Shown piece by piece: positions 7,038 through 32,229 of a DNA stretch of 32,559 nt (its first letter is position 1; every line of letters begins with the position of its first letter). A program made the position numbers and the translations under genes. The DNA is taken from NCBI GenBank assembly GCA_023665825.1, contig JAMPDE010000001.1, forward strand, positions 648,890 to 681,448, in the 5' to 3' direction. This DNA comes from Alistipes senegalensis (GTDB lineage: Bacteria > Bacteroidota > Bacteroidia > Bacteroidales > Rikenellaceae). A model generated the notes under the pieces. The model was not told the DNA's origin and made no database searches. It saw only the letters and a program-made list of their open reading frames with translations.

Positions 7038-7041
7038 CGGT

Positions 7042-7070
7042 TAAATATACGCATTTTTTCGGGAAAACAA
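7042..7070 (-). promoter_or_regulatory. Weak candidate promoter of the HTCS gene
   Basis: The minus strand has TATATTTA (7042-7049, seven of eight matches to TAnnTTTG) with a TTG 18 bp upstream (7068-7070). Transcription would begin at about the annotated ATG at 7037, which would favour the internal start at 7013. A perfect 8-bp hairpin (CGGGAAAA, loop CAA, TTTTCCCG; 7060-7078) overlaps the upstream half. Confidence 0.35.
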
Positions 7071-7081
7071 TTTTCCCGCCG

Positions 7082-7125
7082 AAAAACTGCCGCGCGGGCC
7101 GCAACCGTCGAAGATTGCAGCCCGC
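7082..7125 (-). terminator. Imperfect terminator after the PL15 gene
   Basis: On the minus strand, arms 7125-7115 and 7104-7094 pair over ten base pairs with one mismatch (GCGGGC ... GCCCGC core) around a 10-nt loop. TTTTT follows eight bases later (7086-7082). It begins 32 bases after the PL15 stop. The long stem-to-T distance makes it weak, so some read-through into the HTCS gene is likely. Confidence 0.4.
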
Positions 7126-7157
7126 ACAACGCAAAGCCTCACGATGCGAACGAAATG

Positions 7158-10648: not shown

Positions 10649-10650
10649 GA

Positions 10651-12297: not shown

Positions 12298-12323
12298 AGT
12301 ATGCAAGTTCGCTATTTTAGGTT

Positions 12324-13997: not shown

Positions 13998-14012
13998 GAC
14001 AAAATCGGTATT

Positions 14013-15428: not shown

Positions 15429-15459
15429 ACGGTCAGTTTCAGTTTGTCGAAAGCAAGAA

Positions 15460-15467
15460 CAAAAATA
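15460..15467 (-). promoter_or_regulatory. -7 box of unit III (sulfatase operon)
   Basis: The minus strand reads TATTTTTG, matching TAnnTTTG, 31 bases before the sulfatase start. No -33 element is present. The operator at 15537 begins exactly 70 bp upstream of its first T. Confidence 0.6.
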
Positions 15468-15536
15468 GTCGATGCGGTGCGAAAAAAGGCTGCCGAATGT
15501 TCCCGAAAACACCAATCGCGTACAAAACGATGCTAC

Positions 15537-15574
15537 ATTTGTGCAATCCGACCCCAAATTTGTCCCAAAAGAGG
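15537..15574 (-). promoter_or_regulatory. Candidate HTCS operator A (serves unit III)
   Basis: Read on the plus strand it contains TTTGTGCAATCCGA and, 21 bp on, TTTGTCC. It matches operator B (32192-32229) at 26 of 38 positions without gaps, and operator C (15631-15594, opposite strand) in the same core. Positions invariant in all three include the two GT steps, CA, CCGA and the second TTTGT. Its spacing to the -7 box (70 bp) equals that of operator B. Confidence 0.65.
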
Positions 15575-15593
15575 GCCGCGAAGCCTCGTCACG

Positions 15594-15631
15594 ACCCGAA
15601 TTATACAAAATCGGCATCGGTCTGCACAAAA
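15594..15631 (+). promoter_or_regulatory. Candidate HTCS operator C (serves unit II)
   Basis: The minus strand, read from 15631, gives TTTTGTGCAGACCGA and then GATTTTGT, the same two-box direct repeat as operators A and B. It is inverted to suit the plus-strand PL12 operon, and its proximal base is 71 bp upstream of the TAACTTTG box. Nineteen bases separate it from operator A. Confidence 0.6.
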
Positions 15632-15701
15632 TTGGGAACGCACTGCGGAATCGTGCGGAAAGATTGGTACATTTTCAAAATCGCGGAACGCCGCCGCATA
15701 G

Positions 15702-15709
15702 TAACTTTG
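15702..15709 (+). promoter_or_regulatory. -7 box of unit II (lyase operon)
   Basis: TAACTTTG is a perfect TAnnTTTG match ending 23 bases before the PL12 ATG, leaving a short leader. No -33 TTTG is found at 19-21 bp. Confidence 0.65.
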
Positions 15710-15732
15710 TATACCAAAAATACGAAAACCGC

Positions 15733-17685
15733 ATGAATGCCTTGAAACCTTTGTTCGTCCTGCTGGCCGCCGTCGCGCCGCTGGCCGTCGGCGCACAAAC
15801 CGACCCCGATGTCTTCGCCCTGCTTGACCTTGCGCAACCGGGATTGGAGCAAGTCGCCGCCCTGCACGCCGCAGGCGACGACGATGCAGCGGCCGAAGCC
15901 CTGCTCGCCTACTATCGCGCCCGCAAAGAGACGGTCTACCCCGACATCGACCCGGAACATCCCGTCCTCACGGACGAAGAACGCCGCTGGGCCGACGATG
16001 CGCTCGAACACCGCTTTTTCGTCCACTCGGGCTACCAGCCCTCCTACTTCTACGGCGACGACATCGACTGGCAGTACTGGCCCGTCAAGGACAACGAACT
16101 GCGCTGGCAGCTGCACCGCATGAAGTGGTGGCTGCCGATGGGCAAGGCCTACCGGCTGACGGGCGACGAACGCTATGCGGCCGAATGGTGCCGCCAATAC
16201 CTCGACTGGATGCGCAAGAATCCGCTGACGGAGTACCGCGAGGACGGCGGGCGCGACCTGATGCACGCCGACAACGTCTATTTCGCATGGCGGCCGCTGG
16301 AAGTGAGCGACCGGCTCGAATTCCAGATCCAGCAATTCTGCTGCATGCTGCCTGCCGAAGCGTTCGACGGCGCATTCCTGCTCCGTTTTCTGGAAAACTA
16401 CCGCCGCCACGCCGACCACATCACGCACCATTTTTCGGCATCGGGCAACCACCTGCTCTTTCAGGCGCAGCGGCTCGTCTTTGCGGGGGTGTTCTTCCCC
16501 GAATTCCGCGAAGCGGCCGCATGGCGCGCACGGGGCGTGGAAATCCTCAACCGCGAAATAGCCAAGCAGGTCTATGACGACGGCATGCAATACGAACTCG
16601 ACCCGCACTACCACCTCGAATCCATCGACATATTCCTGAAAGCGTTCGGCATGGCCGAAGCCAACGGAATGGGAGACGAGTTCCCGTCGGAGTACCTCGC
16701 CACCGTCGAACGGATGATCGACGCCCATATCCACTGCCTCTACCCCGACTACACCACCCCGCTGTTCAGCGACAACCGCCAGCACGACAAGCAGGAGCTG
16801 CTGGCCCGCTACCGCAAATGGCTGGAACTCTTCCCGACGAACGCCGCCGTCCGCCGGCTGGCGACCGAAGGAGCCGAAGGCGCGGCCCCGAACCACCTTT
16901 CGCGGGCGTTCCGCACGTCGGGATTCTACACGATGCGCAACGGCTGGGACGACGACGCGACCGTGCTCATCCTCAAAGCGGGCCCGCCTGCATTCTGGCA
17001 CAACCAACCCGACAACGGCACGTTCGAGCTGTGGGTGCGCGGACGCAACTTCTTTCCCGATTCGGGATGCTATGTCTACGGCGGCGATGCGGAGGTGATG
17101 GCCCTGCGCAACTGGTTCCGGCAGACGCAGGTGCACAACACGCTGACGCTCGACGACCGCAATCTGGAACGCACCGACTCGCGCTGTCTGGCGTGGGAGA
17201 CCGACGGCCCGACCGAACGGCTGACGGTCGAAAATCCCTCGTACGAGGGGCTGACCCACCGGCGGACCGTGTGGTTCGTCAACCGGCGGTTCTTCGTGCT
17301 GCTCGACTGCGCGGAGGGAGACGCCGCAGGCTCCGTCGCGCTGCACTACCAACTGGCGGAAGATACGCCGGCGGAAGATGCGGCGCATTGCCGCGTGGCG
17401 ACACGATTCGCCGACGGGAACAACCTCGCGATGCAGGTTTTCGGGCCGCGCGGCACGGCGATGCAGCGGCGCGAAGGGTGGCAGTCGCCCCGCTACCGCG
17501 AACGGCACAAACGTCCGGCCTATGCTTTCGCCGTGCGGAAGCAGGCGCAACGCCCCGTACGGTTCGTGACGGTGCTGCTGCCGGCCACCGATGCCACCCG
17601 CCCCCGTATCCGTGCGAAAGTACGCCGCGACGGCACGGTCCGCGTGAAAATCGACGGCCGGAAATACGTCTTAAACAACAATTAA
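15733..17685 (+). CDS. PL12 heparan-sulfate lyase (heparinase III type), copy 1
   Basis: 650 residues with a type I signal peptide (MNALKPLFVLLAAVAPLAVGAQ), so probably periplasmic. The N-terminal heparinase II/III alpha-toroid covers about 25-350 (QPSYFYGDDIDWQYWP, DNELRWQLHR) and the C-terminal beta-sandwich the rest. The catalytic set is complete: Asn239 in SGNHLLFQAQ, Tyr293 in DPHYHLES and His423 in HNQPDNGTFELW. These sit almost exactly where Pedobacter heparinus heparinase III has Asn240, Tyr294 and His424 (recalled from the literature). It cleaves the low-sulfated parts of heparan sulfate by beta-elimination. ATG at 15733 is chosen for the signal peptide and the -7 box just upstream. 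First gene of unit II, 16 bp before its paralog. Confidence 0.92.
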   Translation: MNALKPLFVLLAAVAPLAVGAQTDPDVFALLDLAQPGLEQVAALHAAGDDDAAAEALLAYYRARKETVYPDIDPEHPVLTDEERRWADDALEHRFFVHSGYQPSYFYGDDIDWQYWPVKDNELRWQLHRMKWWLPMGKAYRLTGDERYAAEWCRQYLDWMRKNPLTEYREDGGRDLMHADNVYFAWRPLEVSDRLEFQIQQFCCMLPAEAFDGAFLLRFLENYRRHADHITHHFSASGNHLLFQAQRLVFAGVFFPEFREAAAWRARGVEILNREIAKQVYDDGMQYELDPHYHLESIDIFLKAFGMAEANGMGDEFPSEYLATVERMIDAHIHCLYPDYTTPLFSDNRQHDKQELLARYRKWLELFPTNAAVRRLATEGAEGAAPNHLSRAFRTSGFYTMRNGWDDDATVLILKAGPPAFWHNQPDNGTFELWVRGRNFFPDSGCYVYGGDAEVMALRNWFRQTQVHNTLTLDDRNLERTDSRCLAWETDGPTERLTVENPSYEGLTHRRTVWFVNRRFFVLLDCAEGDAAGSVALHYQLAEDTPAEDAAHCRVATRFADGNNLAMQVFGPRGTAMQRREGWQSPRYRERHKRPAYAFAVRKQAQRPVRFVTVLLPATDATRPRIRAKVRRDGTVRVKIDGRKYVLNNN

Positions 17686-17701
17686 AACCACCAATACCGA
17701 A

Positions 17702-19732
17702 ATGAAACGAATCCTACTGACATTGGCCGTCGGGCTGTGCAGCGTCGCAGCCGTTTCCGCCGCGACAGCGAAACCGGCAAAACCGGCGAAAAGCGACCAC
17801 ATCACGGCCGAAGCGCAAGGGCTCTACGACCTGCTCGACCTCGACCGTGCGGGGCTGGAAGCCGTGAAAAAAGCCTGCAACAAGGGCGACTACGCCGCCG
17901 CAGACAAGGCCCTGCTCGACTATTTCCGCAAGCGCAAAGGTGTCGTGCAAATCGACGTCGACCTGCAAAACGTTACGATCAAGAAGAACGAACTGCGCTG
18001 GGCCGAAGAATCGCTCGAACACAAGTTCTACGCCCACAAAGGGTACCAGCCCTCCTACTTCTACGGCGACGACATCGACTGGCGCTACTGGCCCGTCAAG
18101 GACAACGAACTGCGCTGGCAGCTGCACCGCCACTACTGGTTCATTCCGCTGGCGAAAGCCTATGCAATTTCAGGCCAAAACAAATACATCGACGCATGGA
18201 TCGACCAGTACACCGACTGGATCCGCAAGAATCCGCTCGACGGAGTGGAACGGTTGCAGGCCGCCGGAGCATCGGCCGAAGCGATTGCGGCCGAAAAGGA
18301 GAACATCCGCTTCGCATGGCGTCCGATGGAGGCCGGACGCCGCCTGCAAGACCAGCTGGCCGAATTCGCGCTGACGATCCAGTCGCCGCGCTTCACGCCC
18401 GAATTCCTGAATCTCTTTCTGCGCATGTTCCACCAGCATGCCGACTACGTGCTGCACCACTACTCGAAGCAGGGCAACCACCTGCTTTTCGAGGCCCAGC
18501 GCATGCTCTTCGCGGGCATCTACTTCCCCGAATTCCTCGACGCAGCTGAATGGCGTCGCAGCGGCATCGAAATCCTCAACCGCGAAATCGGCGTGCAGGT
18601 CTACGACGACGGCATGCAGTTCGAGCTGGACTACGGCTACCACCTCGCCTCGATCGACATATTCATCAAGGCGCTGAATATGGCCGCAGCCAACGGGATG
18701 GCGCACGAATTCCCCGAATCATACATCCGCACGGTCGAAAGCATGACCGTCGTGGCGTTCAACCTGCTCTTTCCCGACTACACAAACCCGATGTTCGGCG
18801 ACACGAAAAGCCACGAAAAATCGTCGCTGACCCAACAATTCGGCCGCTGGCACAAGGTCTTCACCGACAACGACCAGCTGGAGTGGTCCGCCACGAGCGG
18901 CAAACGGGGCGAAATGCCGCCCTACACCTCGCGGCAATTCCCCGCATCGGGATTCTACGTTCTGCGCACGGGGTGGCTGCCCGATGCGACGGTGACGGTC
19001 GTCAAGGCAGGGCCTCCGGCATTCTGGCACAACCAGCCCGACAACGGCACGTTCGACTACTGGCATGCCGGACGCAACTTCTTCCCCGATTCGGGCAGCT
19101 ACGTCTACGGCGGCGACAGCACCGTGCTGGCCCAGCGCGACTGGTTCCGCCAGACGCGCGTGCACAACACGCTGACGCTCGACAACCGCAATCTGGAACA
19201 GACCGACTCGAAGCCGCTGCTATGGAAAACCGATGAGCGAATGACCGTCGCGGTGGTGGAAAATCCCTCCTACGAGGGACTGACGCACCGCCGGTCGTTC
19301 TACCTCATGGACGACGGCGTACTGGTCATCGCCGACCAAGCCTACGGAACGGCGCAGGGCGTCGTGGGCGTGCATTTCAACCTCTGTCCGGGCGAAATCG
19401 AGTTCGACAAGAACGGCACGATGCGCACCCGATTCGCCGACGGCAACAACATCCGCATCAAGACCACCTGCAACCGGCCGGCCCGCATCGCCGACGAGGA
19501 AGGCTGGGTGTCGTATGCCTATCGCGAAAAAGCCGAACGTCCGGCCTACGTCGTCGAGACCGACAAAACGGACGATGCGCCGCTGCTGTTCATCACCGTC
19601 ATCGCACCCGACGACGAAGCGCATCGCGGCTCGATCGCCGTCGTGCCGCAGGAAACGGCCGTCACCGGCAAACTGGCATTCGACGTTCGGGTGGGTGCAA
19701 AAAGCTATTCATTAGGCTATGAACTCGAATAA
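17702..19732 (+). CDS. PL12 heparan-sulfate lyase (heparinase III type), copy 2
   Basis: 676 residues, paralog of the preceding gene. Type I signal peptide followed by a short AKPAKPAKS linker. The toroid and beta-sandwich match copy 1. Catalytic residues are Asn259 (QGNHLLFEAQ), Tyr313 (DYGYHLAS) and His443 (HNQPDNGTFDYW), with the same 54- and 130-residue spacings. It is close to BT4657 of B. thetaiotaomicron. A region of 87 bases (18044-18130) is nearly identical to 16033-16119 in copy 1 at DNA level, more than the rest of the genes would predict. Its last 14 bases overlap the start of the PL13 gene. The two copies may prefer different sulfation patterns; this cannot be read from sequence. 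Confidence 0.92.
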   Translation: MKRILLTLAVGLCSVAAVSAATAKPAKPAKSDHITAEAQGLYDLLDLDRAGLEAVKKACNKGDYAAADKALLDYFRKRKGVVQIDVDLQNVTIKKNELRWAEESLEHKFYAHKGYQPSYFYGDDIDWRYWPVKDNELRWQLHRHYWFIPLAKAYAISGQNKYIDAWIDQYTDWIRKNPLDGVERLQAAGASAEAIAAEKENIRFAWRPMEAGRRLQDQLAEFALTIQSPRFTPEFLNLFLRMFHQHADYVLHHYSKQGNHLLFEAQRMLFAGIYFPEFLDAAEWRRSGIEILNREIGVQVYDDGMQFELDYGYHLASIDIFIKALNMAAANGMAHEFPESYIRTVESMTVVAFNLLFPDYTNPMFGDTKSHEKSSLTQQFGRWHKVFTDNDQLEWSATSGKRGEMPPYTSRQFPASGFYVLRTGWLPDATVTVVKAGPPAFWHNQPDNGTFDYWHAGRNFFPDSGSYVYGGDSTVLAQRDWFRQTRVHNTLTLDNRNLEQTDSKPLLWKTDERMTVAVVENPSYEGLTHRRSFYLMDDGVLVIADQAYGTAQGVVGVHFNLCPGEIEFDKNGTMRTRFADGNNIRIKTTCNRPARIADEEGWVSYAYREKAERPAYVVETDKTDDAPLLFITVIAPDDEAHRGSIAVVPQETAVTGKLAFDVRVGAKSYSLGYELE

Positions 19733-20885
19733 AGAACTCACCGGATTTCTGTGCGGGGCGTTGCTGCTGCTGGCGGCAACGCCCATCGCTGCCCGACAGC
19801 CCGAACTGGAAAATCTGCCCGAACGGGTCAACGTACAGGCCGACAGCGCACGCCGCGACCAAATCATCGACGGCGAGTGGGTCGCAGTCGGCATCCGCAA
19901 GGAAGGAGCTATCTGCCGCGACCATACGCGGATGTACGAAGGCCGCCCCTCGATCCGCTTCACGCTGGGCCGCGACGACAACACGCTGGCGGGCTATGCC
20001 GCCGGCGAAACGAAAGGCCGCGCCGAATTGAGCTACTGCTACGCCACGTCGGACGATTTCGCCGCCCTGCCCACCGAAGCCTATCCGGCAGCCCAACGGA
20101 TGAAAACCGTCTATCATCACGGCAAGGGCATCTGCGCGCAAGGCTCGAAATGGAGCTACACCTTCGCCGTCTACGTTCCCTCGACGCTCTCGGACGAGGT
20201 GTGCACCATCTTCGCCCAATGGCACGGCATGCCCGACCGCACGCTCGTGACGGCACCCGACGGACGGGTGATGAAACTCACGCCCGAAGAATTTCTGGCG
20301 ATGGAAGACACGGTCATTATCCGCAAAGACATCGTTCATACGCGGGTGGCGGGCACGGACAAACGCGGCAAAACGGTCTGGAAAGCGGGCGAACCGACCG
20401 GCTGGAAAGTCGAGCAGGGCGGCTATCCCCCGCTGGCATTCGGATTCTCGGGCGGGCGATTCTACATCAAGGCCAACTCCGACCGCCGCTGGTTCACCGA
20501 CAAGACCGACCGCTGCAACGCCAATCCCGCCGAAGCCGAAGTGCTGCGTCCGGTCGAATCGGAGTACAAATCGTCGACCATCGCCTGCCGGATGCCGTTC
20601 GACGAGTTCCCGAAGGATTGCTGGGTCACGTTCGACGTCGAAATCGACTGGTCGCGCTATTCGGGCCCGACGGAGCGCATCGAGGCACCCGGACGGCTGG
20701 ACGTGCGGATGTCTTACGAACAGGCAGACAAACGCCGGCAAAAGCATCTGGTGCGCAATGCCCGCATCGCTATCGGCCGCAACGACGAAGACGGCTACTA
20801 CTTCAAATACGGCATCTACCGCGTCGGCAACAGCACCGAGCCGGTCAGCTACAATCTGGCCGGATTCCGGCAGCAAGAGCGCTGA
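19719..20885 (+). CDS. PL13 heparin lyase I (heparinase I)
   Basis: 388 residues. N-terminal signal peptide (GFLCGALLLLAATPIAA), then a jelly-roll heparinase I domain filling the protein. Family hallmarks are clear: FAQWHGMPDRTLV, KAGEPTGWKVEQGGYPPLAFGFSGG (split by the fold), FYIKANSDR, TDRCNANP, YKSSTIA, DEFPKDCWVTF and the C-terminal DDGYYFK-like / GIYRVGNST ... YNLAG segment. The His in QWHGMPDR lies in the known active-site region. Heparinase I cuts highly sulfated GlcNS6S-IdoA2S stretches, complementing the PL12 enzymes. In B. thetaiotaomicron the PL13 gene (BT4675) lies apart from the main PUL, whereas here it is in one operon with two PL12 genes. It starts inside the preceding gene (14-base overlap) and is followed by a strong terminator. 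Confidence 0.94.
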   Translation: MNSNKELTGFLCGALLLLAATPIAARQPELENLPERVNVQADSARRDQIIDGEWVAVGIRKEGAICRDHTRMYEGRPSIRFTLGRDDNTLAGYAAGETKGRAELSYCYATSDDFAALPTEAYPAAQRMKTVYHHGKGICAQGSKWSYTFAVYVPSTLSDEVCTIFAQWHGMPDRTLVTAPDGRVMKLTPEEFLAMEDTVIIRKDIVHTRVAGTDKRGKTVWKAGEPTGWKVEQGGYPPLAFGFSGGRFYIKANSDRRWFTDKTDRCNANPAEAEVLRPVESEYKSSTIACRMPFDEFPKDCWVTFDVEIDWSRYSGPTERIEAPGRLDVRMSYEQADKRRQKHLVRNARIAIGRNDEDGYYFKYGIYRVGNSTEPVSYNLAGFRQQER

Positions 20886-20907
20886 ACGACCGGAACGAAG
20901 GAGAAAT

Positions 20908-20945
20908 GAAGCGTCCCGACCTTGACGACAAGGTCGGGACGCTTC
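20908..20945. terminator. Strong hairpin terminator between convergent units II and I
   Basis: A perfect 17-bp stem (GAAGCGTCCCGACCTTG with its complement) closes a 4-base ACGA loop, followed on the plus strand by GTTTTCG. It lies between the PL13 stop (20885) and the SusD stop (20965), which converge. On the minus strand a shorter ATTTCT follows, so it probably works in both directions, better on plus. Confidence 0.85.
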
Positions 20946-20964
20946 GTTTTCGGGCGGACACGGA

Positions 20965-22584
20965 CTATTTGCCCCAACCCGGATTTTGCTGGCACTTGGG
21001 CATCAAGTCCAATTCGCGCTGGGGAATGGGCAGCAACTCGTGACGTCCCTGCACGGTGTACAACCGCACCGTGTAGTTGGCCCCTTCGTTCCAGTCGAGC
21101 AATGCCTGCGCCGTTTCACGGATCTTATCGTAGTAGATACCCCACCGGATCAAATCCTGTTTGCGATGGCCCTCGAAGCAAAGTTCGTAGGCGCGTTCCT
21201 TGCGAATCGCCTCGCGCAACTCCTCGCGCGACAAACCGTACGAAAGGTCGTGGTTCGTATCGCCGAAACCGCGACGGCGCACGGCATTCACCGCGTCGAC
21301 CGCGTCGGTGATCGACCCGCCCGATTCGTTGAGCGACTCGGCGAACAAGAGCAGCACGTCGGAATAACGCAGGATATACCAGTTGATGTTCGACTTGTCG
21401 TTGTTGATCATATAGCCGGGCAGATCGACATACTTCTCGGTATTCCATTTGGCCGGAGTGAAGAGCTGCTTGTTCTTGTCGTCGTTTTGCTTCGTAATGT
21501 AAGCGACGTGATCCGAACTTGCCTCATGGTATTTATAATCGGCGATCGACAAAGCCATACGCGGGTCGTTGTGCGTCGCCCACTCGTCCGTGAAGGTGGC
21601 GATCACTTTCCAGTTGGCCGAATTGCGTCCGCGCACACCGTCGATGGTAGCCGCCGACACGCCGTTCCATTTGCCGATACGTCCGGCCGTATTGTCGCTG
21701 TCGAGCCCCGTAGGCGAATAGAACGACACTTCGAGCAGGCTCTCGCCGGCATCCCATTCGCCAGTGCAGGTGTTGTCCCACACCTTCTCGTAATCGGGAA
21801 TCAGGCGATGCTTGCCCGATTCGACGACACGGCGGGCGACTTTGGCCGCTTCGGCCCATTTCGATTCGTCGCGCACGGGATACCCCGCCCACGTGCAATA
21901 GACTTTGGTCAACAAGCCCAACGCGGCTCCTTTCGAGAAACGATAGGCATTCGACGAACGCATGTTGTCGTCGACCGCCCAAGGAAGCACTTCGGCCGCG
22001 TATTTGAGGTCTTCCTCGATAAGTGCGTAGACATCGGTCGGGGCGGACTGTTCGTACTCCACGTCGCGTTTGCGCGATTCGGAAGTGGCGGTCGTCAGGA
22101 CGACGTTGCCGTACCACCGCACCAGCTCGAAGTAGAACAAGGCGCGCAACGCACGGGCCTCACCCAGATAGACCGTTCCCAACGCACGGTCGGAATCGCC
22201 CCATTCGCCGATGCGGGCCGAAAGCGTTTCGATAAGATCGTTCGCTTCGTAAATCGCCGAATAGAGCTTCTGCCACGTCCCCGAAATCTGCGACGTCGAG
22301 GCGTTGTGCGAGTTGGTCGGAATCTCGCGGAACCCCGAAGTCGCGCTGCCCTCGCACTGGGCGATGTCGGTCGAAATGGTGAACAGCAACGACAGGTGAT
22401 ACGAATAAGTATTCTCGTTGGCGAGGTTCTTATAGACGCCTTGCAAGACACTCTCGGCCTCTTTGGCGTTGTTCACGTAGTTATCCTTGCCGATCTCGGT
22501 ATACGACGTCTCTTCCAACAGATCGGAGCACGAACCGGCCAGCAGGCAAAGAACGGAAAGCGTATATAACAGGTATTTTTTCAT
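20965..22584 (-). CDS. susD: SusD-like glycan-binding lipoprotein (RagB/SusD family)
   Basis: 539 residues. Lipoprotein signal MKKYLLYTLSVLCLLAGSC with Cys19, followed by SDLLEE, typical of surface-exported Bacteroidota lipoproteins. The alpha-helical TPR-like SusD fold is recognised from LQGVYKNLAN, ARALRALFYFELVRWYG, SSNAYRFSKGAALGLLTKVY, NWYILRYSDVLLLFAESLNE, AVNAVRRRGFG, LREAIRKERAYELCFEGHRKQDLIRWG and the C-terminal LLPIPQRELDLMPKCQQNPGW. It sits as a lid on the SusC pore and captures heparan sulfate oligosaccharides. ATG 22584 is preferred over 22596 because it begins the normal signal. It lies 15 bp after susC and is the last gene of unit I. Confidence 0.95.
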   Translation of the reverse strand: MKKYLLYTLSVLCLLAGSCSDLLEETSYTEIGKDNYVNNAKEAESVLQGVYKNLANENTYSYHLSLLFTISTDIAQCEGSATSGFREIPTNSHNASTSQISGTWQKLYSAIYEANDLIETLSARIGEWGDSDRALGTVYLGEARALRALFYFELVRWYGNVVLTTATSESRKRDVEYEQSAPTDVYALIEEDLKYAAEVLPWAVDDNMRSSNAYRFSKGAALGLLTKVYCTWAGYPVRDESKWAEAAKVARRVVESGKHRLIPDYEKVWDNTCTGEWDAGESLLEVSFYSPTGLDSDNTAGRIGKWNGVSAATIDGVRGRNSANWKVIATFTDEWATHNDPRMALSIADYKYHEASSDHVAYITKQNDDKNKQLFTPAKWNTEKYVDLPGYMINNDKSNINWYILRYSDVLLLFAESLNESGGSITDAVDAVNAVRRRGFGDTNHDLSYGLSREELREAIRKERAYELCFEGHRKQDLIRWGIYYDKIRETAQALLDWNEGANYTVRLYTVQGRHELLPIPQRELDLMPKCQQNPGWGK

Positions 22585-22599
22585 GATTGTGCACATTTT

Positions 22600-25500: not shown

Positions 25501-25761
25501 TTTGTATCCCAAGTAGAAGAATTCGAGTACGGCGTTTTTATCGGCCGTGATGGCATAGGAACCGTCGAGGTCGGCCGACACGCCCTGTGTGGTGCCGCGA
25601 ATGACGACGCTCGCGCCGATAGCGGGCTGGTCGTTCTCGTCGACGATCCGGCCCGTGATTTTCTGTTGGGCCGATGCCGCGAAGGTCAGCATCAGGGCGA
25701 GAAGGGTCAAGACCCCTCTCCGCCCGAAAGCCCATATGATACTATTTTTCATTCGTTTCAT
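22600..25761 (-). CDS. susC: SusC-like TonB-dependent outer-membrane transporter
   Basis: 1053 residues. Signal peptide to about residue 32 (LALMLTFAASAQQ), carboxypeptidase-regulatory-like domain (about 34-105, ITGRIVDENDQPAIGASVVIRGT), the SusC signature around the TonB box (ALDEVVVVGYGTMKKSDLTG, about 110-130), the plug (VRGVGSVNGDTTPLYIVDGF, IEVLKDASSSAIYGSRAANGVVMVTTK) and a long beta-barrel ending in an aromatic residue (CGIDLTF). It imports oligosaccharides across the outer membrane using TonB energy. Partner of the SusD gene directly downstream; BT4660 is the functional counterpart in B. thetaiotaomicron. It starts 14 bp after the surface-binding protein gene; no separate promoter is visible. 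Confidence 0.96.
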   Translation of the reverse strand: MKRMKNSIIWAFGRRGVLTLLALMLTFAASAQQKITGRIVDENDQPAIGASVVIRGTTQGVSADLDGSYAITADKNAVLEFFYLGYKTHEVKVGSQTRIDVKLEPEVNALDEVVVVGYGTMKKSDLTGSVASVSAKDVEGFKTGSVVEALGGQIAGVQITATDGTPGAGFDIKVRGVGSVNGDTTPLYIVDGFQVDNIDYLANSDIASIEVLKDASSSAIYGSRAANGVVMVTTKAGQKGRPVVSYNGSASYRKISKTLDLLSPYEFVGLQMEAWPDKFTGTYFKLGNDDEGVPYRYQTIDDYLGAGGVDWQNETFRPTWSQDHNISVSGGSDKTKYSFSFSDFLENGIFRNSAFNKITGKMRISHQISKAVSFEGTVNYANTDKRGMGTSGDNGRFNMLAQILRARPTAGLRMTDEELLDAAIDPLELESSESLAQVNPIKQAESVVNTTKTEMWSGNLALNVDFGKGWTFRTAVTYNTSYQRYYQFFKEGSKEAYRNGQTPYGSTRMTRNNRWTNYNQLTYKYTPKNGHAFDVMLGQETSYQGTEFVTAASTDFPFDNLENNNLGLGATPTTAQSGRSENMLVSFFARGNYSYKDRYLFTFTLRADGSTVFSKNNKWGFFPSFSGAWRISEEPFMKQQEVVSNLKLRAGWGVVGNDRIANYLSLELYSQGKYGYGNNLITVLSPKQLANENIRWEASQSTNIGIDLGLWNNRLNLTADFFIKDTKDLLMAANRAYVSGFASQWANVGKIRNKGIELAINSTNFNTPGGFRWTTDFNISFIRNELRELADGAKEMLTRASWHGDYTGYDYVARVGQSLGLIYGYAFDGVYQDSDFNIDTQGVRTLKEGVADISDHLGKTVTPGTVKYKDIDGDGVITTNDRTVIGNGTPKWFGGITNSFSYKGVDLSFMFQFNYGNDVYNATRVFASQSQDQRSNLMAEVADRWSPTNASNSVPRWDGYIKNELYSRFIEDGSFLRLKNLTVGYTFPKKWTSKFYVSKLRLYFSAQNLFVVTGYSGYDPEVNMRAANPMTPSLDWGAYPKSRVYTCGIDLTF

Positions 25762-25775
25762 GTTCAGTTAGGTTT

Positions 25776-27911
25776 TTAGAAGTTCTCGTCGAACCAGATC
25801 CAAATCGGGAAAATCTGCGACTTGGAGCCAGCTACTCCACTCTCTTGGCCATTTACGACAAAGGTCATTTGCCCATGGAACATTCCGCTGGCCGAATTGC
25901 CATTCGTATCAAGCCATTTGTTCGGATTCACCACCACCTCTTTGGTTGCAGGATCGACATAGGCCGCAGGGACAGACAACCGATTCTTATTATCATAATA
26001 AGATACAGGAGCTCTATTACCCTTAGCTGCCATGGCAGCCGGATCAGAATCCGAAATCGCCTCGTAATAAGGCTGCCAAATATGGTTGCGTAAGAAGCCG
26101 TCAACCGTAGGCTGGCCATCGACATGGGAAACGGGCCCTTGGAAATTATAATAATTGAACGTACGGCGGTAATCCAACAAGAACTGCGAAGGATCATCGA
26201 CACCTTCGACGGTCGGAGCGAGCGACCGACCACCGACTTTCGGATTTACCTGCAAGACAAACGGTGCATAGAAAATAGATACGCCGTCAACCGCTTGGTT
26301 GAAGTAGAAGAATACCGGAACCGTTACCGAGGTTTCTCCGGGTTGGCCCTTACCTGCCGTAGCCGTTACGAAAATCAGACCGCCATTACCGGCTTTGAAT
26401 CCGGACATTACCAATATACCCGTATCCGAATCGATTGTCGTACCACCACAATTGTGTTTAGATTTGACCGACCATTCGAGTTGCGTGCCCGGTTTGGCAT
26501 CGGTCGTCGGAGTAAGCGAGAGTGCTTTCATCTCACTGGCAGATGCACAACGATACTGATTCGCATAATTTTCGGCGGGTTCCAATCCGAGATTGTTGCC
26601 GTAAACGATCTTCGTAAAGTAATACGGGTTTTCGACTACGGTCAGTTTCAGTATCGTTTCGGCCGAAGATTTCATATTTTCGACCTTCACGGGAATCGAA
26701 TGCTCGCCGAGCGGAATTTTATTCTTTTCGGCCGAAGATACCACACCCATAGCGTCGATTTGAATTTGCCCGGCCAATTCGGCAGGCAGTTCGCCCAACT
26801 CGAACTTGACTTCGTCGCCGACAAGCCCTGCTTTCGGTGAAGCCGAGAAAGTTCCGCCTTGAATCATTTGGACATCATCGTAACCGAACGTAGTCGGGTC
26901 GATAGGCTCGATGTAAGCGATGACCGTAAGCGTATAGGCACCCTCGAAGACGGCAGAACCGAATTCGTTGGTGACCCGCAAATCGAGCGTATAGACGGCA
27001 TCGAGCGGCAGGCCGCTGTTCTCCCCGACCGAAATCACACCCGTAGCGGGGTCGATGACGATTTTGCCGGTAGCATCGGACCCGTCCGAAGACGCGATTT
27101 TTTCGATAGCCCATACCGTCTGTTCGGACGACCCTTTCATGGTCGGCGCCATGCCGGTGAATGCCCGGTCCACTTCCATACGTCCCGAAGCAACGGGATA
27201 CGCGATTTCCAGCGGAGCGCTGGTAATGCGCACCGTCAACAGATTTTCGTAGGTGTATTTACCGGCGCGCGTGGTGATGCAGATAGGCAGCGGATAGGTG
27301 CCCGGCAAGACTTCGCCCTTGAAACCGGAATTGAGCGTAATCACCCCCTTGTTCGAGATGGCGAAATACTCGCGGCCCTCTTCCTGCTGCAACGCATAGG
27401 AGAGAATCGACACGGTTTCGCCGACGGGCGTCACGGTGACGGAAACATCCGTCGTCGCCAGTTCGTCGAAAGGAATATCGAGCGTCGATGCACTCACTTC
27501 CAGCTCGGCAGGCGCGGCCGCTACCATCCGCACGACGAAAATGTCGGAGAAGCGGAACGTGCCGCCGCCGGCCCGACACGAAATGGAGAGTTTATAGGTA
27601 CCGGTAGGCAGTTCGTCGGTATCGGCAATGGAGACGGCACCGGTTGCCGCGTCGATGCTGAAACAAGCGACCTCGACCGGCTGGTCGTCGCACTTGACGC
27701 CCACGATGGCAAATTCCGACGGCGTCGGGCCGTGATAACTCGGAGTACCCGACAGGTAGTTCATCGACGGGCCGATATCGACGACCGTCGAATAGTAAAG
27801 CTGCAAATCGCCGCCGGCGGTATCGTCGTCTTCGCAAGCCGTGAATGCGACCGTGCACAACGCCGCCGCAAGAACGAAGCATGCTTTTCGGATGAATGGT
27901 TTCATAGTCAT
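25776..27911 (-). CDS. Surface heparan sulfate-binding lipoprotein (SGBP, DUF4958-like)
   Basis: 711 residues. Lipoprotein signal ending at Cys26 (VAFTAC) followed by EDDD, an acidic surface-export signal. At least four cadherin/Ig-like repeats follow, each with an 'IDxxTGxIS ... LPxGxYxLxI' pattern (for example FSIDAATGAVSI, FAISNKGVITL, IVIDPATGVISV, IQIDAMGVVSS), spanning about residues 35-420. A distinct C-terminal domain (about 430-711) is rich in aromatics (YRRTFNYYNFQGP, HIWQPYY) that could contact glycan, though it may be structural. No catalytic motif is seen. It is upstream of susC in the position of BT4661, the heparan sulfate-binding surface protein of B. thetaiotaomicron, and I infer the same role. 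The start may be M3 (27905). Gaps to neighbours are 16 and 14 bp. Confidence 0.82.
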   Translation of the reverse strand: MTMKPFIRKACFVLAAALCTVAFTACEDDDTAGGDLQLYYSTVVDIGPSMNYLSGTPSYHGPTPSEFAIVGVKCDDQPVEVACFSIDAATGAVSIADTDELPTGTYKLSISCRAGGGTFRFSDIFVVRMVAAAPAELEVSASTLDIPFDELATTDVSVTVTPVGETVSILSYALQQEEGREYFAISNKGVITLNSGFKGEVLPGTYPLPICITTRAGKYTYENLLTVRITSAPLEIAYPVASGRMEVDRAFTGMAPTMKGSSEQTVWAIEKIASSDGSDATGKIVIDPATGVISVGENSGLPLDAVYTLDLRVTNEFGSAVFEGAYTLTVIAYIEPIDPTTFGYDDVQMIQGGTFSASPKAGLVGDEVKFELGELPAELAGQIQIDAMGVVSSAEKNKIPLGEHSIPVKVENMKSSAETILKLTVVENPYYFTKIVYGNNLGLEPAENYANQYRCASASEMKALSLTPTTDAKPGTQLEWSVKSKHNCGGTTIDSDTGILVMSGFKAGNGGLIFVTATAGKGQPGETSVTVPVFFYFNQAVDGVSIFYAPFVLQVNPKVGGRSLAPTVEGVDDPSQFLLDYRRTFNYYNFQGPVSHVDGQPTVDGFLRNHIWQPYYEAISDSDPAAMAAKGNRAPVSYYDNKNRLSVPAAYVDPATKEVVVNPNKWLDTNGNSASGMFHGQMTFVVNGQESGVAGSKSQIFPIWIWFDENF

Positions 27912-27927
27912 ATAGCAGTTTTAGCGT

Positions 27928-30825
27928 TTATTTCGTGTAGGTGTATTTCAGGTCATACCGGTATACCTTGTTGTCGATGTGCAGGGTAAACGACGTATCT
28001 TCGAACTCGACCCGGATTTTCTCGGAAGCATTCTTCGTCGGCAACAGCACGGTGACGAAGCGCACGACGTCCTCGTCGGCCGTCTTCTCGACATCGATCT
28101 GGTAGGACTTGCGCTTCGTTTCCTCATTGATTTTGTAGGAAACGAAGCCTTCACGCGGGTTGAACGTGCACGGCTTGCTGCAGAACGTACGCACCAGCAG
28201 GTTGTTTTTGTCGGCAAATGCGGTATGTGCACCGTATTCGGCGGCGTCATACACGACCTCCGTGTCCGAACCCTCGACAAGGTGGAAATTCAGGTTCACC
28301 GTACCGGCGGCATTGCCGATAGCCTCGTCGAGCAGGACATAGAGATTATCGGGCTCACGGTTGAGCAGATAGACCGTGCGGCGATGGGTCAAACCCTCGT
28401 AGGAGAGATTTTCCAGCGTCAGACACGGCGTCGTGTAGCCCTCCGTGAGGTTGCGATACAAACTGCCGGCGACTTTCAAATTTTTACCATTGAGCGACAG
28501 GGTATTATGGGCTGTCGTGGCAGCGAATTTGGCACGGTTCGCATTCGTTTCGCGGTCGCCTGCATAGGAGAAACAACCCGAATCGGGGAAGAAGTTACGC
28601 CCTTTGACCCACAACTCGAACGTGTTGTTGTCCCACTGGCGATGCCACTCCTTATCCTGCCCGATAACGACCGCAGGAGCATTCTGCAAGACCATCATCA
28701 TGTCGTCCTTCGTCCAACCCGTACGCATCACGTAGTAACCGGCATCGGGGAAAGTAACGAAATTCGTTTGGGGCTGCGAGCCCTCTTTGCCCTCCGTCGC
28801 CAGCCACAGCATCTCCTGATTGTCGGGGAAAAGCTCGCAATACTCTTTCAAGTTGCGCGTGAGTACACTTTTGCTCCACGACCCGTCGCGCCATGTATCG
28901 CCGAATTGGGGAATCGTGTAATTCGGATAAATCATGTTCATCACAACCTCCGTCATTTTGCGCATGGCTTCGACATAACCCGACGGGAAATAGCCGTTTC
29001 CGCCATTGAGTTGCGCAACCCGCAAAGCCGTACGGAAATCGGAAATGGCGGCGATATGATAGTGCAAGGCACCGTCCATCAACCAGCCGTCGGGGAAGTA
29101 CTGCGCCGAAACCTCGCGGTTGAGCACCCCGCTACCGCTCGATTTCCACGTGGCCGAATTTTTCAGTTCGGGGAAAAGCATGCCGGCGAACGTGACGGCC
29201 TGCGCCTGCGTGATGAGGTGATTCGTGGTCTCGGAATAGTTGTTTACGATGTGATTGGCCTCCTCGTCGAGACGCACCAACACTTCCGCCAGCCACTCGG
29301 CGGTAATCGTCGGCGAATCCTGATAATACTCCAACAGCGCGCAGCGGTCGATCAATCGCGCCGCCACATCGAGCGGACGCCACGACCAGTGATTCTTCAC
29401 ATCAGTACCCTGCTCGGGTTTGGGATTCTGCCGAATCCAGTCGGCATAGACCTCCATCCAGTTTTCGACATATTTTTCCTCTTTCGTCGTGTAGTAGGTC
29501 TTGGCCTGCGGCACCATCCACTGGTGGCGGTGAAGCTGCCAACGCTGTTCATTTTTGCCGGTGTACTTATTCCAGTCGATGCCGTCGCCGGCATCATTCA
29601 TATAAGAATAAGGCCTCTCCTCGTCTTCTGCACTCGGATCGTAAAAATTCTTGATATAGAAACGGTATCCGCTCTCTTTGAATGCGTAGTCGGCTTGTTT
29701 TTTGGCTGTTTCTTTCGCCTTTTCGCTCAATGCCAGCGTAGCATTCAAATCGACATTCGGGTTCCGGTCGTGCGGACGCGTGCGGTAGTAAGCGAGCAAC
29801 TCGTCCAACGCCAAACCGTAGTCGAGTTGGTCGTAAGCGGTCTTGACTTTGGACAAACCGCTGTAATCGAGGTCGAGGAGGTCGAATACCCGCATGTCGA
29901 TACCTTCGTTCATCGACTCGGAGCCCTCCGTCTTCCATTCGGCCGCCCGCACCATTTCGGGGAAAATCAACCCCGCACGGAAAACCGCGTGTGCCTGAAC
30001 CGCTTTTTCCGCTTCGTCTTCGGAGTAGTTCGCCGAGAGGTATTCGGCCTCTTGAGCTACATTTGCCAGAAAACGCGCGAACAGCTGCGGCGTCAGATTG
30101 GACGACTGCATGAAGTAATAGATCAGGTCGCACTGCCCTTCCAGACGGTAGGCCACGTCGATGGGCCGCCAAGCGAACATCGCTTCGTTCGAGGTCTCGG
30201 GAGCATCGGCAGCGACCGTCTCGCCCGCAGGCAACGGATATTTGTCCAGCCAGTTTTCGTAGACTTCGATCCATCCCTTAGCATACGACTCGTCCAGCGA
30301 CGTGCGGTAAGCCTTGCCCTGCGCGACCATCCACGCATGACGATGCACGCGGTAGTGCTGCTCCTCGTCGGCCGAATTGAGCGTCCAGTCGAGTTTGCCC
30401 GAACCGTTGGCGTAGGAATAAGGCTGTCCGCCGTCGTCGTACCCTTCGACATAAAAACGGTATTTCCCGTCGGCGGAAGCATGGTCGGCCCACGTCTGCT
30501 CCGTAGCGGAAATCGACGGGGCGATCAGACTTACATGGTTGTTGGGCACGTCGGTACGGCTGCGGTAATACTCCAACAAGGCCTGTGCCGCCAGATAATA
30601 CTGGTCGGCGTCGCGCAACGATTTCACCGATTCCAAACCTCGATAATCGAGATTCAACGCCTCGAAAACAGCCGATTCGATGACGCTGTTGTCGGGAATT
30701 ACGGGATCGGCGGTCGTGCCGCCGCTGCTCGACGACTGTTCGATATCGTCGGACAGGCAGCCCGTTGCGAACAAGGCTGCCGCTACGAAACAAGCGGTCG
30801 TGATTTTCGCGAAAATTCGTTTCAT
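27928..30825 (-). CDS. Surface PL12-type heparan sulfate lyase with a duplicated N-terminal toroid
   Basis: 965 residues. Lipoprotein signal with Cys23 followed by LSDDIE, an acidic surface-export signal, then a Ser/Gly linker. Two heparinase-type toroid modules occur in tandem. The first (about 52-310: FEALNLDYRGLESVK, RVHRHAWMVAQGKAY, FAWRPIDVAYRLEG) stops shortly after the FPEM segment. The second (from 311: FDLLDLDYSGLSKVK, QLHRHQWMVPQAKTY, WSWRPLDVAARL) continues into the beta-sandwich. Catalytic residues are in the second: Asn535 (TTNHLITQAQ), Tyr589 (LHYHIA) and His728 (WHRQWDNNTF). The aligned residue in the first is Ala272 (EDEAEKAVQAH), so that module is probably inactive. It matches the position of BT4662, the surface PL12 enzyme of B. 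thetaiotaomicron. Confidence 0.9.
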   Translation of the reverse strand: MKRIFAKITTACFVAAALFATGCLSDDIEQSSSSGGTTADPVIPDNSVIESAVFEALNLDYRGLESVKSLRDADQYYLAAQALLEYYRSRTDVPNNHVSLIAPSISATEQTWADHASADGKYRFYVEGYDDGGQPYSYANGSGKLDWTLNSADEEQHYRVHRHAWMVAQGKAYRTSLDESYAKGWIEVYENWLDKYPLPAGETVAADAPETSNEAMFAWRPIDVAYRLEGQCDLIYYFMQSSNLTPQLFARFLANVAQEAEYLSANYSEDEAEKAVQAHAVFRAGLIFPEMVRAAEWKTEGSESMNEGIDMRVFDLLDLDYSGLSKVKTAYDQLDYGLALDELLAYYRTRPHDRNPNVDLNATLALSEKAKETAKKQADYAFKESGYRFYIKNFYDPSAEDEERPYSYMNDAGDGIDWNKYTGKNEQRWQLHRHQWMVPQAKTYYTTKEEKYVENWMEVYADWIRQNPKPEQGTDVKNHWSWRPLDVAARLIDRCALLEYYQDSPTITAEWLAEVLVRLDEEANHIVNNYSETTNHLITQAQAVTFAGMLFPELKNSATWKSSGSGVLNREVSAQYFPDGWLMDGALHYHIAAISDFRTALRVAQLNGGNGYFPSGYVEAMRKMTEVVMNMIYPNYTIPQFGDTWRDGSWSKSVLTRNLKEYCELFPDNQEMLWLATEGKEGSQPQTNFVTFPDAGYYVMRTGWTKDDMMMVLQNAPAVVIGQDKEWHRQWDNNTFELWVKGRNFFPDSGCFSYAGDRETNANRAKFAATTAHNTLSLNGKNLKVAGSLYRNLTEGYTTPCLTLENLSYEGLTHRRTVYLLNREPDNLYVLLDEAIGNAAGTVNLNFHLVEGSDTEVVYDAAEYGAHTAFADKNNLLVRTFCSKPCTFNPREGFVSYKINEETKRKSYQIDVEKTADEDVVRFVTVLLPTKNASEKIRVEFEDTSFTLHIDNKVYRYDLKYTYTK

Positions 30826-30874
30826 ACAGGTTTATGATTTTAGGTTTTTGTATTCGCTATCGGATGTGCCGCCG

Positions 30875-32065
30875 CTATGCCTCGCCCCGCAAATGCAGGT
30901 AACGCCCGATGGCTTCGAGGAAATAGTAGTCGGCGTAATTGAGCGGCGTGTCGATTTCGCTGTTGGCGGGCCAGTGGCCGACGCTGTGCATCAACACGAA
31001 ACCGCCGTTGGTGCCTTCGGCGGCCAGATAGTCGTCGGAGCACAAGGACATCAGCAAGGTTTCGGCATAGTCGAAATACTTGCGGCCCTCGTCGGCGGGC
31101 ACCAGCGTCGAAAGCTCGAACAGCGCCGAAGCCATAACGGCAGCCGCCGAAGCGTCGCGCGGAGCATCGGGCTGGCCGGGCGCGTCGTAATCCCAATACG
31201 GGATGCGGTCGGCCGGCGTACGGGGATGGTTCATCACCAGCGAAGCGATCCGCTCGGCATGCGCCAAGTATTTGGGATCGCCCGTTTCGCGGAAGCACAT
31301 CGTGTAACCGTAAAGGCCCCACGCCTGTCCGCGCGCCCAAGCCGATGCGTCGGCGTAACCTTGAAAGGTGCCGCGACTTTCGACCGAACCGTCGTCGTTG
31401 TAGCTGACGACGTGGTAGGAGCTGGCGTCGTCGCGGAAATGGTTCGCCAGCGTGATGTCGGCATGGCGGCAGGCCACGTCGCGATATTTCGGGTCGCCCG
31501 TCTGCTTCGATGCCCAGAACAGCATCTCCAAGTTCATCATGTTATCGATGATGACGGGATAGTTCCACTCGCCGAAGTCCCACGAACGAATCAGACCGAT
31601 GGTCGGATTGCAACGCGAAATCAGGCTGTTGGCCGCCTCGACGATGACTTCGGCCGAATGCTTGTCGCCGAGCGCGGCCTGCTGCTGCCCGAACGAGCAG
31701 AAGACCATGAAGCCCAAGTCGTGCGTACCTTTATAATACTGGATACCCTCCAAACGGCCGGTATACTTTTCGGCCTCCGAGCGCAGCGCTTCGTCGCCCG
31801 AGAGGCCGTAGGCCAGCCACAGCGAGCCGGGAAAGAAACCGCTCGTCCAGTCGTGGGCATCGATGACCTTGAACTTGGGCATCAACGAACGCGGGAAGCC
31901 CGGCAAAGTATCGAATTCGGAAGCCGCATGCTGCAACTGAACGCAGGCACGGCCGATGGCCCGCTCGACAGCGGCGATTTTCGGATCGTTGTCGGCACGG
32001 CAGCCGCAGAAAAGCGAGGCGCACAAGCCGAAGATCGGGAGGATCGAAAGAACTCTTTTTTTCAT
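30875..32065 (-). CDS. GH88 unsaturated glucuronyl hydrolase
   Basis: 396 residues, first gene of unit I. Lipoprotein-like signal (LFCGC, Cys20 or Cys22), so probably periplasmic and membrane-anchored. It fills a single (alpha/alpha)6 barrel. The two family aspartates are visible: Asp116 in THDLGF and Asp174 in IDNMMNLEML (equivalent to Asp88 and Asp149 of the Bacillus enzyme). Other family segments are DWTSGFFPGSLWLAY, QGYADASAWARGQAWGLYGY and PLNYADYYFLEA. It removes the 4,5-unsaturated uronic acid left by the lyases, by hydration and not direct glycoside hydrolysis. BT4658 is the counterpart in B. thetaiotaomicron. It is 49 bp upstream of the tandem PL12 gene and has its own operator and -7 box. 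Confidence 0.94.
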   Translation of the reverse strand: MKKRVLSILPIFGLCASLFCGCRADNDPKIAAVERAIGRACVQLQHAASEFDTLPGFPRSLMPKFKVIDAHDWTSGFFPGSLWLAYGLSGDEALRSEAEKYTGRLEGIQYYKGTHDLGFMVFCSFGQQQAALGDKHSAEVIVEAANSLISRCNPTIGLIRSWDFGEWNYPVIIDNMMNLEMLFWASKQTGDPKYRDVACRHADITLANHFRDDASSYHVVSYNDDGSVESRGTFQGYADASAWARGQAWGLYGYTMCFRETGDPKYLAHAERIASLVMNHPRTPADRIPYWDYDAPGQPDAPRDASAAAVMASALFELSTLVPADEGRKYFDYAETLLMSLCSDDYLAAEGTNGGFVLMHSVGHWPANSEIDTPLNYADYYFLEAIGRYLHLRGEA

Positions 32066-32114
32066 ATTGAAGGTTTACGGGTTTAATTCGGTTATGTACC
32101 GTTTTTCGGTAATA

Positions 32115-32122
32115 CAAAATTA
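32115..32122 (-). promoter_or_regulatory. -7 box of unit I (GH88-susCD operon)
   Basis: The minus strand reads TAATTTTG, matching TAnnTTTG, 49 bases before the GH88 start. No TTTG is found 19-21 bp upstream. Operator B begins 70 bp upstream. Confidence 0.6.
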
Positions 32123-32191
32123 CCCGTAGCCCCTCCGACGCTACCCGAGAATTGCGCAAATGATTTTCAAAACCGCTCAAATAAACTTCGA

Positions 32192-32229
32192 TTTCGTCCA
32201 ATCCGATGCGAATTTTGTTCAAAATCCGG
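32192..32229 (-). promoter_or_regulatory. Candidate HTCS operator B (serves unit I)
   Basis: The plus strand contains TTTCGTCCAATCCGA and, 21 bp on, TTTTGTTC. Ungapped identity to operator A is 26 of 38; the block GTnCA, CCGA, TTTGT is shared with A and C. The distance to the -7 box is 70 bp, the same as operator A, although the surrounding sequences are otherwise unrelated. Confidence 0.65.

Follow-up and report, generated by a model that had tools for sequence, protein, structure and literature searches.

Hybrid two-component systems (HTCSs) are a major class of regulators of polysaccharide utilization loci (PULs) in gut Bacteroides (PMC11253607). Direct repeats of two sites at an average distance of 21 bp were predicted for 16 HTCSs of B. 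thetaiotaomicron (PMC3878776), and for the HTCS_Hep regulon (BT4663) the predicted motif precedes BT4662, BT4675 and BT4658-52 (Ravcheev et al. 2013, PMC3878776). Phosphorylated BT4663-RR was reported to bind bt4662 promoter DNA in a phosphorylation-dependent manner, as judged by gel shift (PMC11253607). Here we describe three copies of a two-box DNA element, called sites A, B and C, one before each of the three transcription units that form a heparan sulfate PUL in a stretch of 32,559 nucleotides from Alistipes senegalensis (assembly GCA_023665825.1, contig JAMPDE010000001.1, positions 648,890 to 681,448 of the forward strand), hereafter the window. The operator at each of these promoters probably consists of four phased half-sites (strong, strong, weak, weak) extending over about 84 bp, with box 4 placed at -33 relative to the -7 box.

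The PUL in the window resembles the HTCS_Hep regulon in being a heparin/heparan PUL with its own HTCS, in which a direct repeat precedes several units and is conserved between genomes (PMC3878776). This is a likeness of description, and the HTCS_Hep motif has two sites, with no relation to a -7 box described in the available part of that article. The PUL in the window belongs to another genome group (family label f1) and differs from HTCS_Hep by its four probable boxes, by their lock to the promoter and by a divergent gap sized in helical turns. With the general HTCS motif it shares the 21-bp direct repeat and the same-face dimer geometry, whereas it probably has four half-sites of graded strength in place of two (PMC3878776). 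The work on BT4663-RR (Gao, Wu and Stock 2024, PMC11253607) concerns the same type of regulator and a matching class of promoter driving susCD homologues. It gives binding by gel shift, and the available part of the article maps no boxes and mentions neither four sites nor a distance to the promoter. Chromatin immunoprecipitation sequencing of BT0366/BT1754 chimeras yielded binding regions, in a report whose main text does not contain the word motif (PMC3404733). Start-site maps of B. thetaiotaomicron report a promoter with -7 and -33 elements (PMC7366714).

As far as the available parts of these sources go, published HTCS operators are predicted two-site motifs without a rule of placement. 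A four-box or promoter-locked HTCS operator was not found described in the open literature, subscription papers and supplements lying outside that search. Two-box HTCS repeats of 21 bp are already known; the four-box, promoter-locked form is the variant proposed here.

Sites A, B and C and their conservation

A preliminary description of the window, made by eye, had placed the element at 15537-15574 (A), at 32192-32229 (B) and, on the opposite strand, at 15594-15631 (C). Its coordinates and letters are borne out, with A and B on the + strand and C on the - strand. A and B are identical at 26 of 38 positions, as it had counted; we add 23 of 38 for A and C and 24 of 38 for B and C. The claimed direct repeat has a pitch of exactly 21 bp at each site, and the distances of 70 (A), 70 (B) and 71 bp (C) to the first T of the -7 box (TAnnTTTG) were correct. 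Thus a real site, locked in position and orientation upstream of all three PUL transcription units and built as a 21-bp direct repeat, was rightly recognized, and the HTCS is still the likely binder judging by the DNA and protein sequences. What did not stand is the picture of an isolated two-box operator acting across 70 bp of unrelated DNA: the spacers, described as otherwise unrelated, hold two further, weak copies of the half-site (Table 1).

A motif search over the genome had been proposed as a check, and in the assembly (2,274,797 bases, 88% complete) the core pattern without mismatches occurs three times, as A, B and C. Because the pattern was written from these three sites, this count by itself is circular, and conservation is therefore the independent test. 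Five further matches appear when two mismatches are allowed. A match with one mismatch (G000:C11:759268) lies inside a ruvB gene and was treated as a chance occurrence.

Relatives were located through the PUL's surface glycan binding protein. Of 268 family genomes 23 contain it, as do 6 of 393 genomes at the level of the order, with the source genome included in both counts. Stretches from 23 other genomes were compared and annotated by tblastn; four family genomes with weak matches (G022, G202, G203, G248) were left out, and genomes with the genus label g1 are called congeneric. A search over related PULs had likewise been proposed beforehand. Built from A, B and C alone, a matrix located elements at the corresponding promoters of syntenic PULs; they lie upstream of PUL genes in 14 of the 23 relatives' stretches. 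Three stretches (G163, G166, G167) ended short of the promoter, and the elements of these genomes were located on other contigs. At the promoters of the f20 and f60 genomes the A/B/C matrix gave nothing, and a scan for half-site pairs then found elements; those missed by the matrix and found by the scan are in G286, G572, G326 and G523. Related genomes keep the two-box element ahead of orthologous genes, and among heparan promoters both the surround TTnnACAAA and the second base C of the box are conserved.

A narrow pattern, ACAAA-N16-ACAAA-N67..73-TAnnTTTG, which misses promoters with a changed box letter, including promoter B of the window, gave 65 matches in 38 of the 268 family genomes. 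Of these, 42 precede PUL genes, in 17 of the 23 genomes positive for the surface protein, and their spacing is 70 in 40 cases and 71 in two. The other 23 matches are scattered over the spacings 67 to 73 (3, 2, 4, 6, 2, 2 and 4). The backwards pattern, used as a control in the same 268 genomes, matched six times. When 50 promoters (38 left once three duplicate rows had been dropped, and 12 later ones) were read base by base, box 1 stood 96 bp upstream of the first T of the -7 box in 43, 95 bp in five and 97 bp in two; entry into this count required a TAnnTTTG in range, which was 90-100 for the 38 and 67-73 after box 2 for the 12.

A and C belong to divergent promoters. According to the coordinates, their box 1 copies are 42 bp apart in 12 of 14 genomes, source included, and 32 bp apart in the other two (G163, G166). 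These values differ by 10 bp, roughly a full turn of the helix, so a constraint on phase fits, and the difference between 42 and 32 bp may go back to a single event. The observation covers positions 15564-15604 of the window together with L199 and L201.

A match of 12-19 bits to the element recurs at about the same place on the antisense strand of SusD in eight genomes (G170, G009, G158, G156, G150, G013, G154, G153) and probably reflects conserved codons.

Two weak boxes in the spacer

A half-site matrix was trained on boxes 1 and 2 only, taken from the 12 of 29 congeneric promoters that survived an identity cut of 80%. Over 101 offsets in these training promoters, the next best positions are 42 and 63 (scores 0.46 and 0.09), followed by -5.76 and below, while a fifth 21-bp step (offset 84) ranks only 56th of 101. 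Within the spacer, offsets 42 and 63 hold ranks 1 and 2 of 63, and they are again first and second of 63 in 12 later promoters from five genomes outside the training; the third promoter of one of these genomes (G170) had been in the training set and is not among the 12. None of 2000 shuffles of the spacers reached the observed score at the two offsets. In reverse-complemented spacers they rank 60 and 51 of 63 and no lattice is seen.

With the same matrix, eight distant promoters (one each of G326, G572, G286, G233, G237 and G275, and two of G523) have their top offsets at 62 and 41. The -7 box lies at 95 rather than 96 in five of these eight, which brings boxes 3 and 4 again to about -54 and -33. 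The gap is conserved in a list of 33 promoters (three of the window, 30 others), with more ACA-type words inside it. The extra base of promoter C falls upstream of box 4, so that the distance from box 4 to the -7 box is kept.

Table 1 Features of the heparan sulfate PUL in the window; negative numbers are distances to the first T of the -7 box, and ranks are among 101 offsets
Feature	Positions	Strand	Remarks
Promoter A box 1 (ACAAA)	15559..15563	-	96 bp upstream of first T of -7 box
Promoter A box 2 (ACAAA)	15538..15542	-	-75
Promoter A weak box 3 (ACGCG in TTTTGTACGCG)	15517..15521	-	-54; rank 4 in this promoter alone
Promoter A weak box 4 (ACATT)	15496..15500	-	-33; rank 39 alone, supported by orthologues
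Promoter A -7 box (TATTTTTG)	15460..15467	-	Consensus match, predicted; first T 15467
Promoter C box 1 (ACAAA)	15605..15609	+	-97
Promoter C box 2 (ACAAA)	15626..15630	+	-76
Promoter C weak box 3 (GGAAT)	15647..15651	+	-55; rank 12 alone; AGAAT in several orthologues
Promoter C weak box 4 (ACATT)	15669..15673	+	-33; offset 64, rank 3
Promoter C -7 box (TAACTTTG)	15702..15709	+	First T 15702
Promoter B box 1 (ACAAA)	32214..32218	-	-96
Promoter B box 2 (ACGAA)	32193..32197	-	-75
Promoter B weak box 3 (GCGGT)	32172..32176	-	-54; poor match, rank 10
Promoter B weak box 4 (GCAAT)	32151..32155	-	-33; rank 3
Promoter B -7 box (TAATTTTG)	32115..32122	-	First T 32122
Gap between divergent arrays A and C	15564..15604		Box 1 to box 1, 42 bp
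HTCS regulator	2967..7037	-	Reg_prop sensor, Y_Y_Y, HisKA, HATPase_c, Response_reg, AraC-type HTH; last gene of promoter A run
Genes behind promoter A	7158..15431	-	Two sulfatases, open reading frame with sub-threshold DUF3604 match, ROK-family protein, DUF4962/heparinase II/III-like protein, then HTCS
Genes behind promoter C	15733..20885	+	Two heparinase II/III-family proteins, PF14099 polysaccharide lyase
Genes behind promoter B	20965..32065	-	GH88-like, heparinase II/III-family, BT4661-like surface glycan binding protein, SusC, SusD

If only the two distal boxes bound the HTCS, it would be an activator of the class I type, working at a distance of some 70 bp from the -7 box on its upstream side, and the conserved bases at -54 and -33 would be a polymerase contact or the site of another factor. 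We consider this unlikely, since the weak boxes resemble the strong ones under a model that was blind to them, at the next two 21-bp steps, and do so in the training and the later promoters and, shifted by one base like most of the -7 boxes there, in the distant ones. It would nevertheless account for boxes 1 and 2 being far better conserved than boxes 3 and 4, for the degenerate state of the latter in single promoters, and for the two sites of the published HTCS motif (PMC3878776).

The position expected for a -33 element begins shortly after box 4, on its downstream side. The trinucleotide TTG was absent between -27 and -18 from all 20 heparan promoters, as compared with its presence in 37 of 165 promoters far from HTCS genes, where it peaks at -23. 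Taken with the control window given below, this no more than suggests that the heparan promoters lack a -33 element.

Promoters beside other HTCS genes

For comparison we took the regions flanking the source genome's five further full-length HTCS genes, together with HTCS surroundings from two f20 genomes (18 stretches) and from other Bacteroidales (60 stretches); one of these 60, L139, a heparan relative, was kept apart. Open reading frames were called by codon bias, and self-similarity was scored in cells of position and lag, anchored on TAnnTTTG. Among the first 81 non-heparan candidates, the top cell was a lag of 21 at -58, with a score of 4.49 against 4.15 for the highest of 200 shuffles. 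A lag of 21 was likewise on top in the 24 candidates of the source genome (4.67, highest shuffle 4.54), and also in the 57 candidates of the f20 subset, there with 4.44, below the highest of 200 shuffles (4.70) and hence not beyond chance alone. The 27 distant heparan PUL candidates, which include several -7 candidates of one promoter, peaked at a lag of 21 at -100 (5.22, highest shuffle 4.74).

The 139 later candidates, unfiltered, gave a lag of 21 at -55 tied with a lag of 20 at -70 (3.96), below the highest of 60 shuffles (4.06). A filter for neighbourhood to an HTCS gene, chosen after this result had been seen, divided them into 37 near and 73 far candidates, with 29 set aside that were promoters of the HTCS gene itself or had no HTCS gene called. 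The top cells of the 37 near candidates were a lag of 21 at -54 and at -100, their score of 4.54 staying below the highest of 60 shuffles (4.65), and the 73 far candidates had no peak at a lag of 21.

For a set of 55 promoters adjacent to other HTCS genes, the top cell scores above every one of 300 shuffles. At the proximal place, a lag of 21 with at least 8 of 12 matches occurs in 14 of the 55, compared with 0-3 at the other lags from 17 to 25, so that the favoured pair is proximal here, which also argues against a role of the distal boxes alone. The position of the pair relative to TAnnTTTG thus seems fixed in other HTCS PULs too, and mostly proximal. A promoter-locked proximal pair is supported for these predicted promoters, and a distal slot is weakly supported.

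The sequence of the boxes differs between HTCS loci while the pitch of 21 bp stays. This observation bears on the idea that the boxes merely bend the DNA as A-tracts in phase, or serve as UP-type elements, and that no sequence-specific protein is involved. Boxes rich in A at two helical turns would suit such a structure, yet the second base C and the surround TTnnACAAA are conserved, the letters vary from locus to locus at constant pitch, and BT4663-RR shifted promoter DNA in the published gel assay (PMC11253607); we hold an origin as mere A-tracts to be highly improbable.

More broadly, there may be a Bacteroidales-wide lattice of 21 bp, fixed to the -7 box, in which the last box replaces the -33 element. 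Ordinary HTCS promoters would carry the strong pair proximally, while in heparan PULs the strong pair would sit 42 bp, or one dimer length, further upstream and a weak pair would occupy the proximal place, allowing two tandem HTCS dimers and a steep response; divergent operons would stand integral helical turns apart. We put this extension forward tentatively, with slightly more doubt than belief.

Two genes of SusC size adjoin other HTCSs, L182:4406-7558 (- strand, promoter at -187) and L121:12437-15586 (+ strand, promoter at -167), and by eye their promoters have about four repeats spaced at 21 bp, whose box letters do not resemble those of the heparan promoters. At another HTCS locus of the source genome (L113:8626-8830), divergent promoters appear to share overlapping 21-bp arrays on both strands.

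The HTCS and its predicted binding

The HTCS of the window matches Reg_prop, Y_Y_Y, HisKA, HATPase_c, Response_reg and HTH_18 of Pfam above the cut-off in one chain. Its receiver has CHIP at residue 1173, which corresponds to the S/CHIP motif reported for the receivers of HTCSs (PMC11253607). The same article names a D and a K as contact residues of the DNA-binding domain. The helix of its AraC domain reads MSRSNLHLKMKSITGE, and the form MSRSNLHLKMK(S/A)ITGE is common to the window protein and all eight aligned orthologues from heparan PULs (five congeners, G326, G286 and G572). The ninth aligned relative, L139, has MSRSNLHLKLKALTGE with two differences, and the heparan helix was found in none of 23 other HTCSs aligned. 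Read on the AraC fold, the conserved helix would be the recognition helix. In the heparan PULs of several families the box sequence and the HTCS helix are kept jointly, and we infer that A, B and C are bound by the window's HTCS.

Binding of the array by a different regulator, be it some other protein of the AraC type or a one-component activator whose gene lies elsewhere, appears improbable to us. In favour of such a regulator, the genome has five further full-length HTCSs as well as several AraC-type matches of shorter length, and three genomes whose promoters carry the element (G233, G234, G237) had no HTCS match in the compared stretches. The joint conservation of box and helix speaks for the HTCS instead, as do the other box sequences of PULs beside other HTCSs and the published binding of BT4663-RR to the bt4662 promoter (PMC11253607).

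No TAnnTTTG was found in the gap before the HTCS gene (window 6991-7250). As the gene is also the last one of the promoter A run, positive feedback is likely. In the f20 genomes G286 and G572, the HTCS gene lies elsewhere in the PUL.

Proposed mechanism and points against it

The best explanation, which we think has a good chance of being right, is that each promoter of the heparan sulfate PUL carries four half-sites of the AraC type at a pitch of 21 bp, a strong distal pair of ACAAA boxes (about -96 and -75) and a degenerate proximal pair (about -54 and -33), read by the HTCS in the following way. A heparan oligosaccharide in the periplasm would cause the HTCS to phosphorylate its own receiver, and the AraC domains thereby released in one HTCS dimer would grip the strong distal pair. 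This dimer would help a second one, by cooperation, onto the weak proximal pair, and the proximal dimer, near the place of the -33 element, would recruit RNA polymerase and stand in for that element. Being weak, the proximal boxes would hold the promoter silent as long as active HTCS is scarce. With the HTCS gene at the end of the promoter A run, the loop would probably be self-amplifying.

The strong boxes, their pitch, their fixed distance to the -7 box and the resemblance of the weak boxes to them can be read directly from the DNA, and so can the conservation in heparan PULs of four Bacteroidales families. If the promoter-anchored rule of four boxes is true, binding sites, start sites and regulons would become predictable from sequence, and there would be a reason for the odd gap of 70 bp. 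A strong distal and a weak proximal dimer would furthermore be a testable design principle for the steepness with which a glycan switches its genes on.

Several results weigh against this interpretation. The ranks of offsets 42 and 63 among 101 are mixed in single promoters (4 and 39 in A, 12 and 4 in C, 10 and 3 in B). A matrix made from the distant promoters themselves ranks offset 51 first, 62 second and 41 third; offset 51 departs from the lattice by roughly a helical turn and may correspond to a second contact of each AraC domain. The promoters are related and not independent, since 12 of the 29 congeneric ones were left after the 80% cut and the 12 later ones are homologues. In the promoters of other HTCS loci the distal pair is weak (5 of 55, compared with 1-3 at other lags), and one of three control anchors, TTnnTATG with 28 rows, also had a lag of 21 at -53 among its top cells. 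Likeness between distal and proximal boxes was not seen at the -100 register of non-heparan promoters, cross pairs favouring a lag of 21 at -87 instead; we therefore restrict the claim of four boxes to heparan PULs. A control window at -47..-38 was equally empty of TTG in the heparan promoters (0 of 20, against 22 of 165 far promoters), for which reason the missing -33 element is only suggested.

On the side of conservation, in four of the 14 stretches (G233, G234, G237 and G275) the elements score low (9.7-16.6 bits), within the range of the A/B/C matrix for unrelated matches, and no element was found in G206 and G244 despite a related surface protein. The two-box match of L139 (G327), whose HTCS is related, is without a TAnnTTTG at the right distance, and matches at heparinase genes in G286 and G572 are without a TAnnTTTG. 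A looser pattern (N12-20, N58-82) was rejected as a detector, as it matches 231 of the 268 genomes and is background in AT-rich relatives.

Gene content of the PUL

All three sites lie upstream of PUL operons linked to the HTCS gene, one transcript per gene run being an assumption from gene order. Heparinase II/III families, sulfatases, GH88, the BT4661-like protein and SusCD together fit a regulon for the degradation and uptake of heparin/heparan. A gene for a serine recombinase (Resolvase) is located near the start of the window (585-1238, + strand), close to the PUL. The heparinase II/III protein behind promoter B (27928-30825, - strand) has its N-terminal domain matched in two stretches, as if duplicated.

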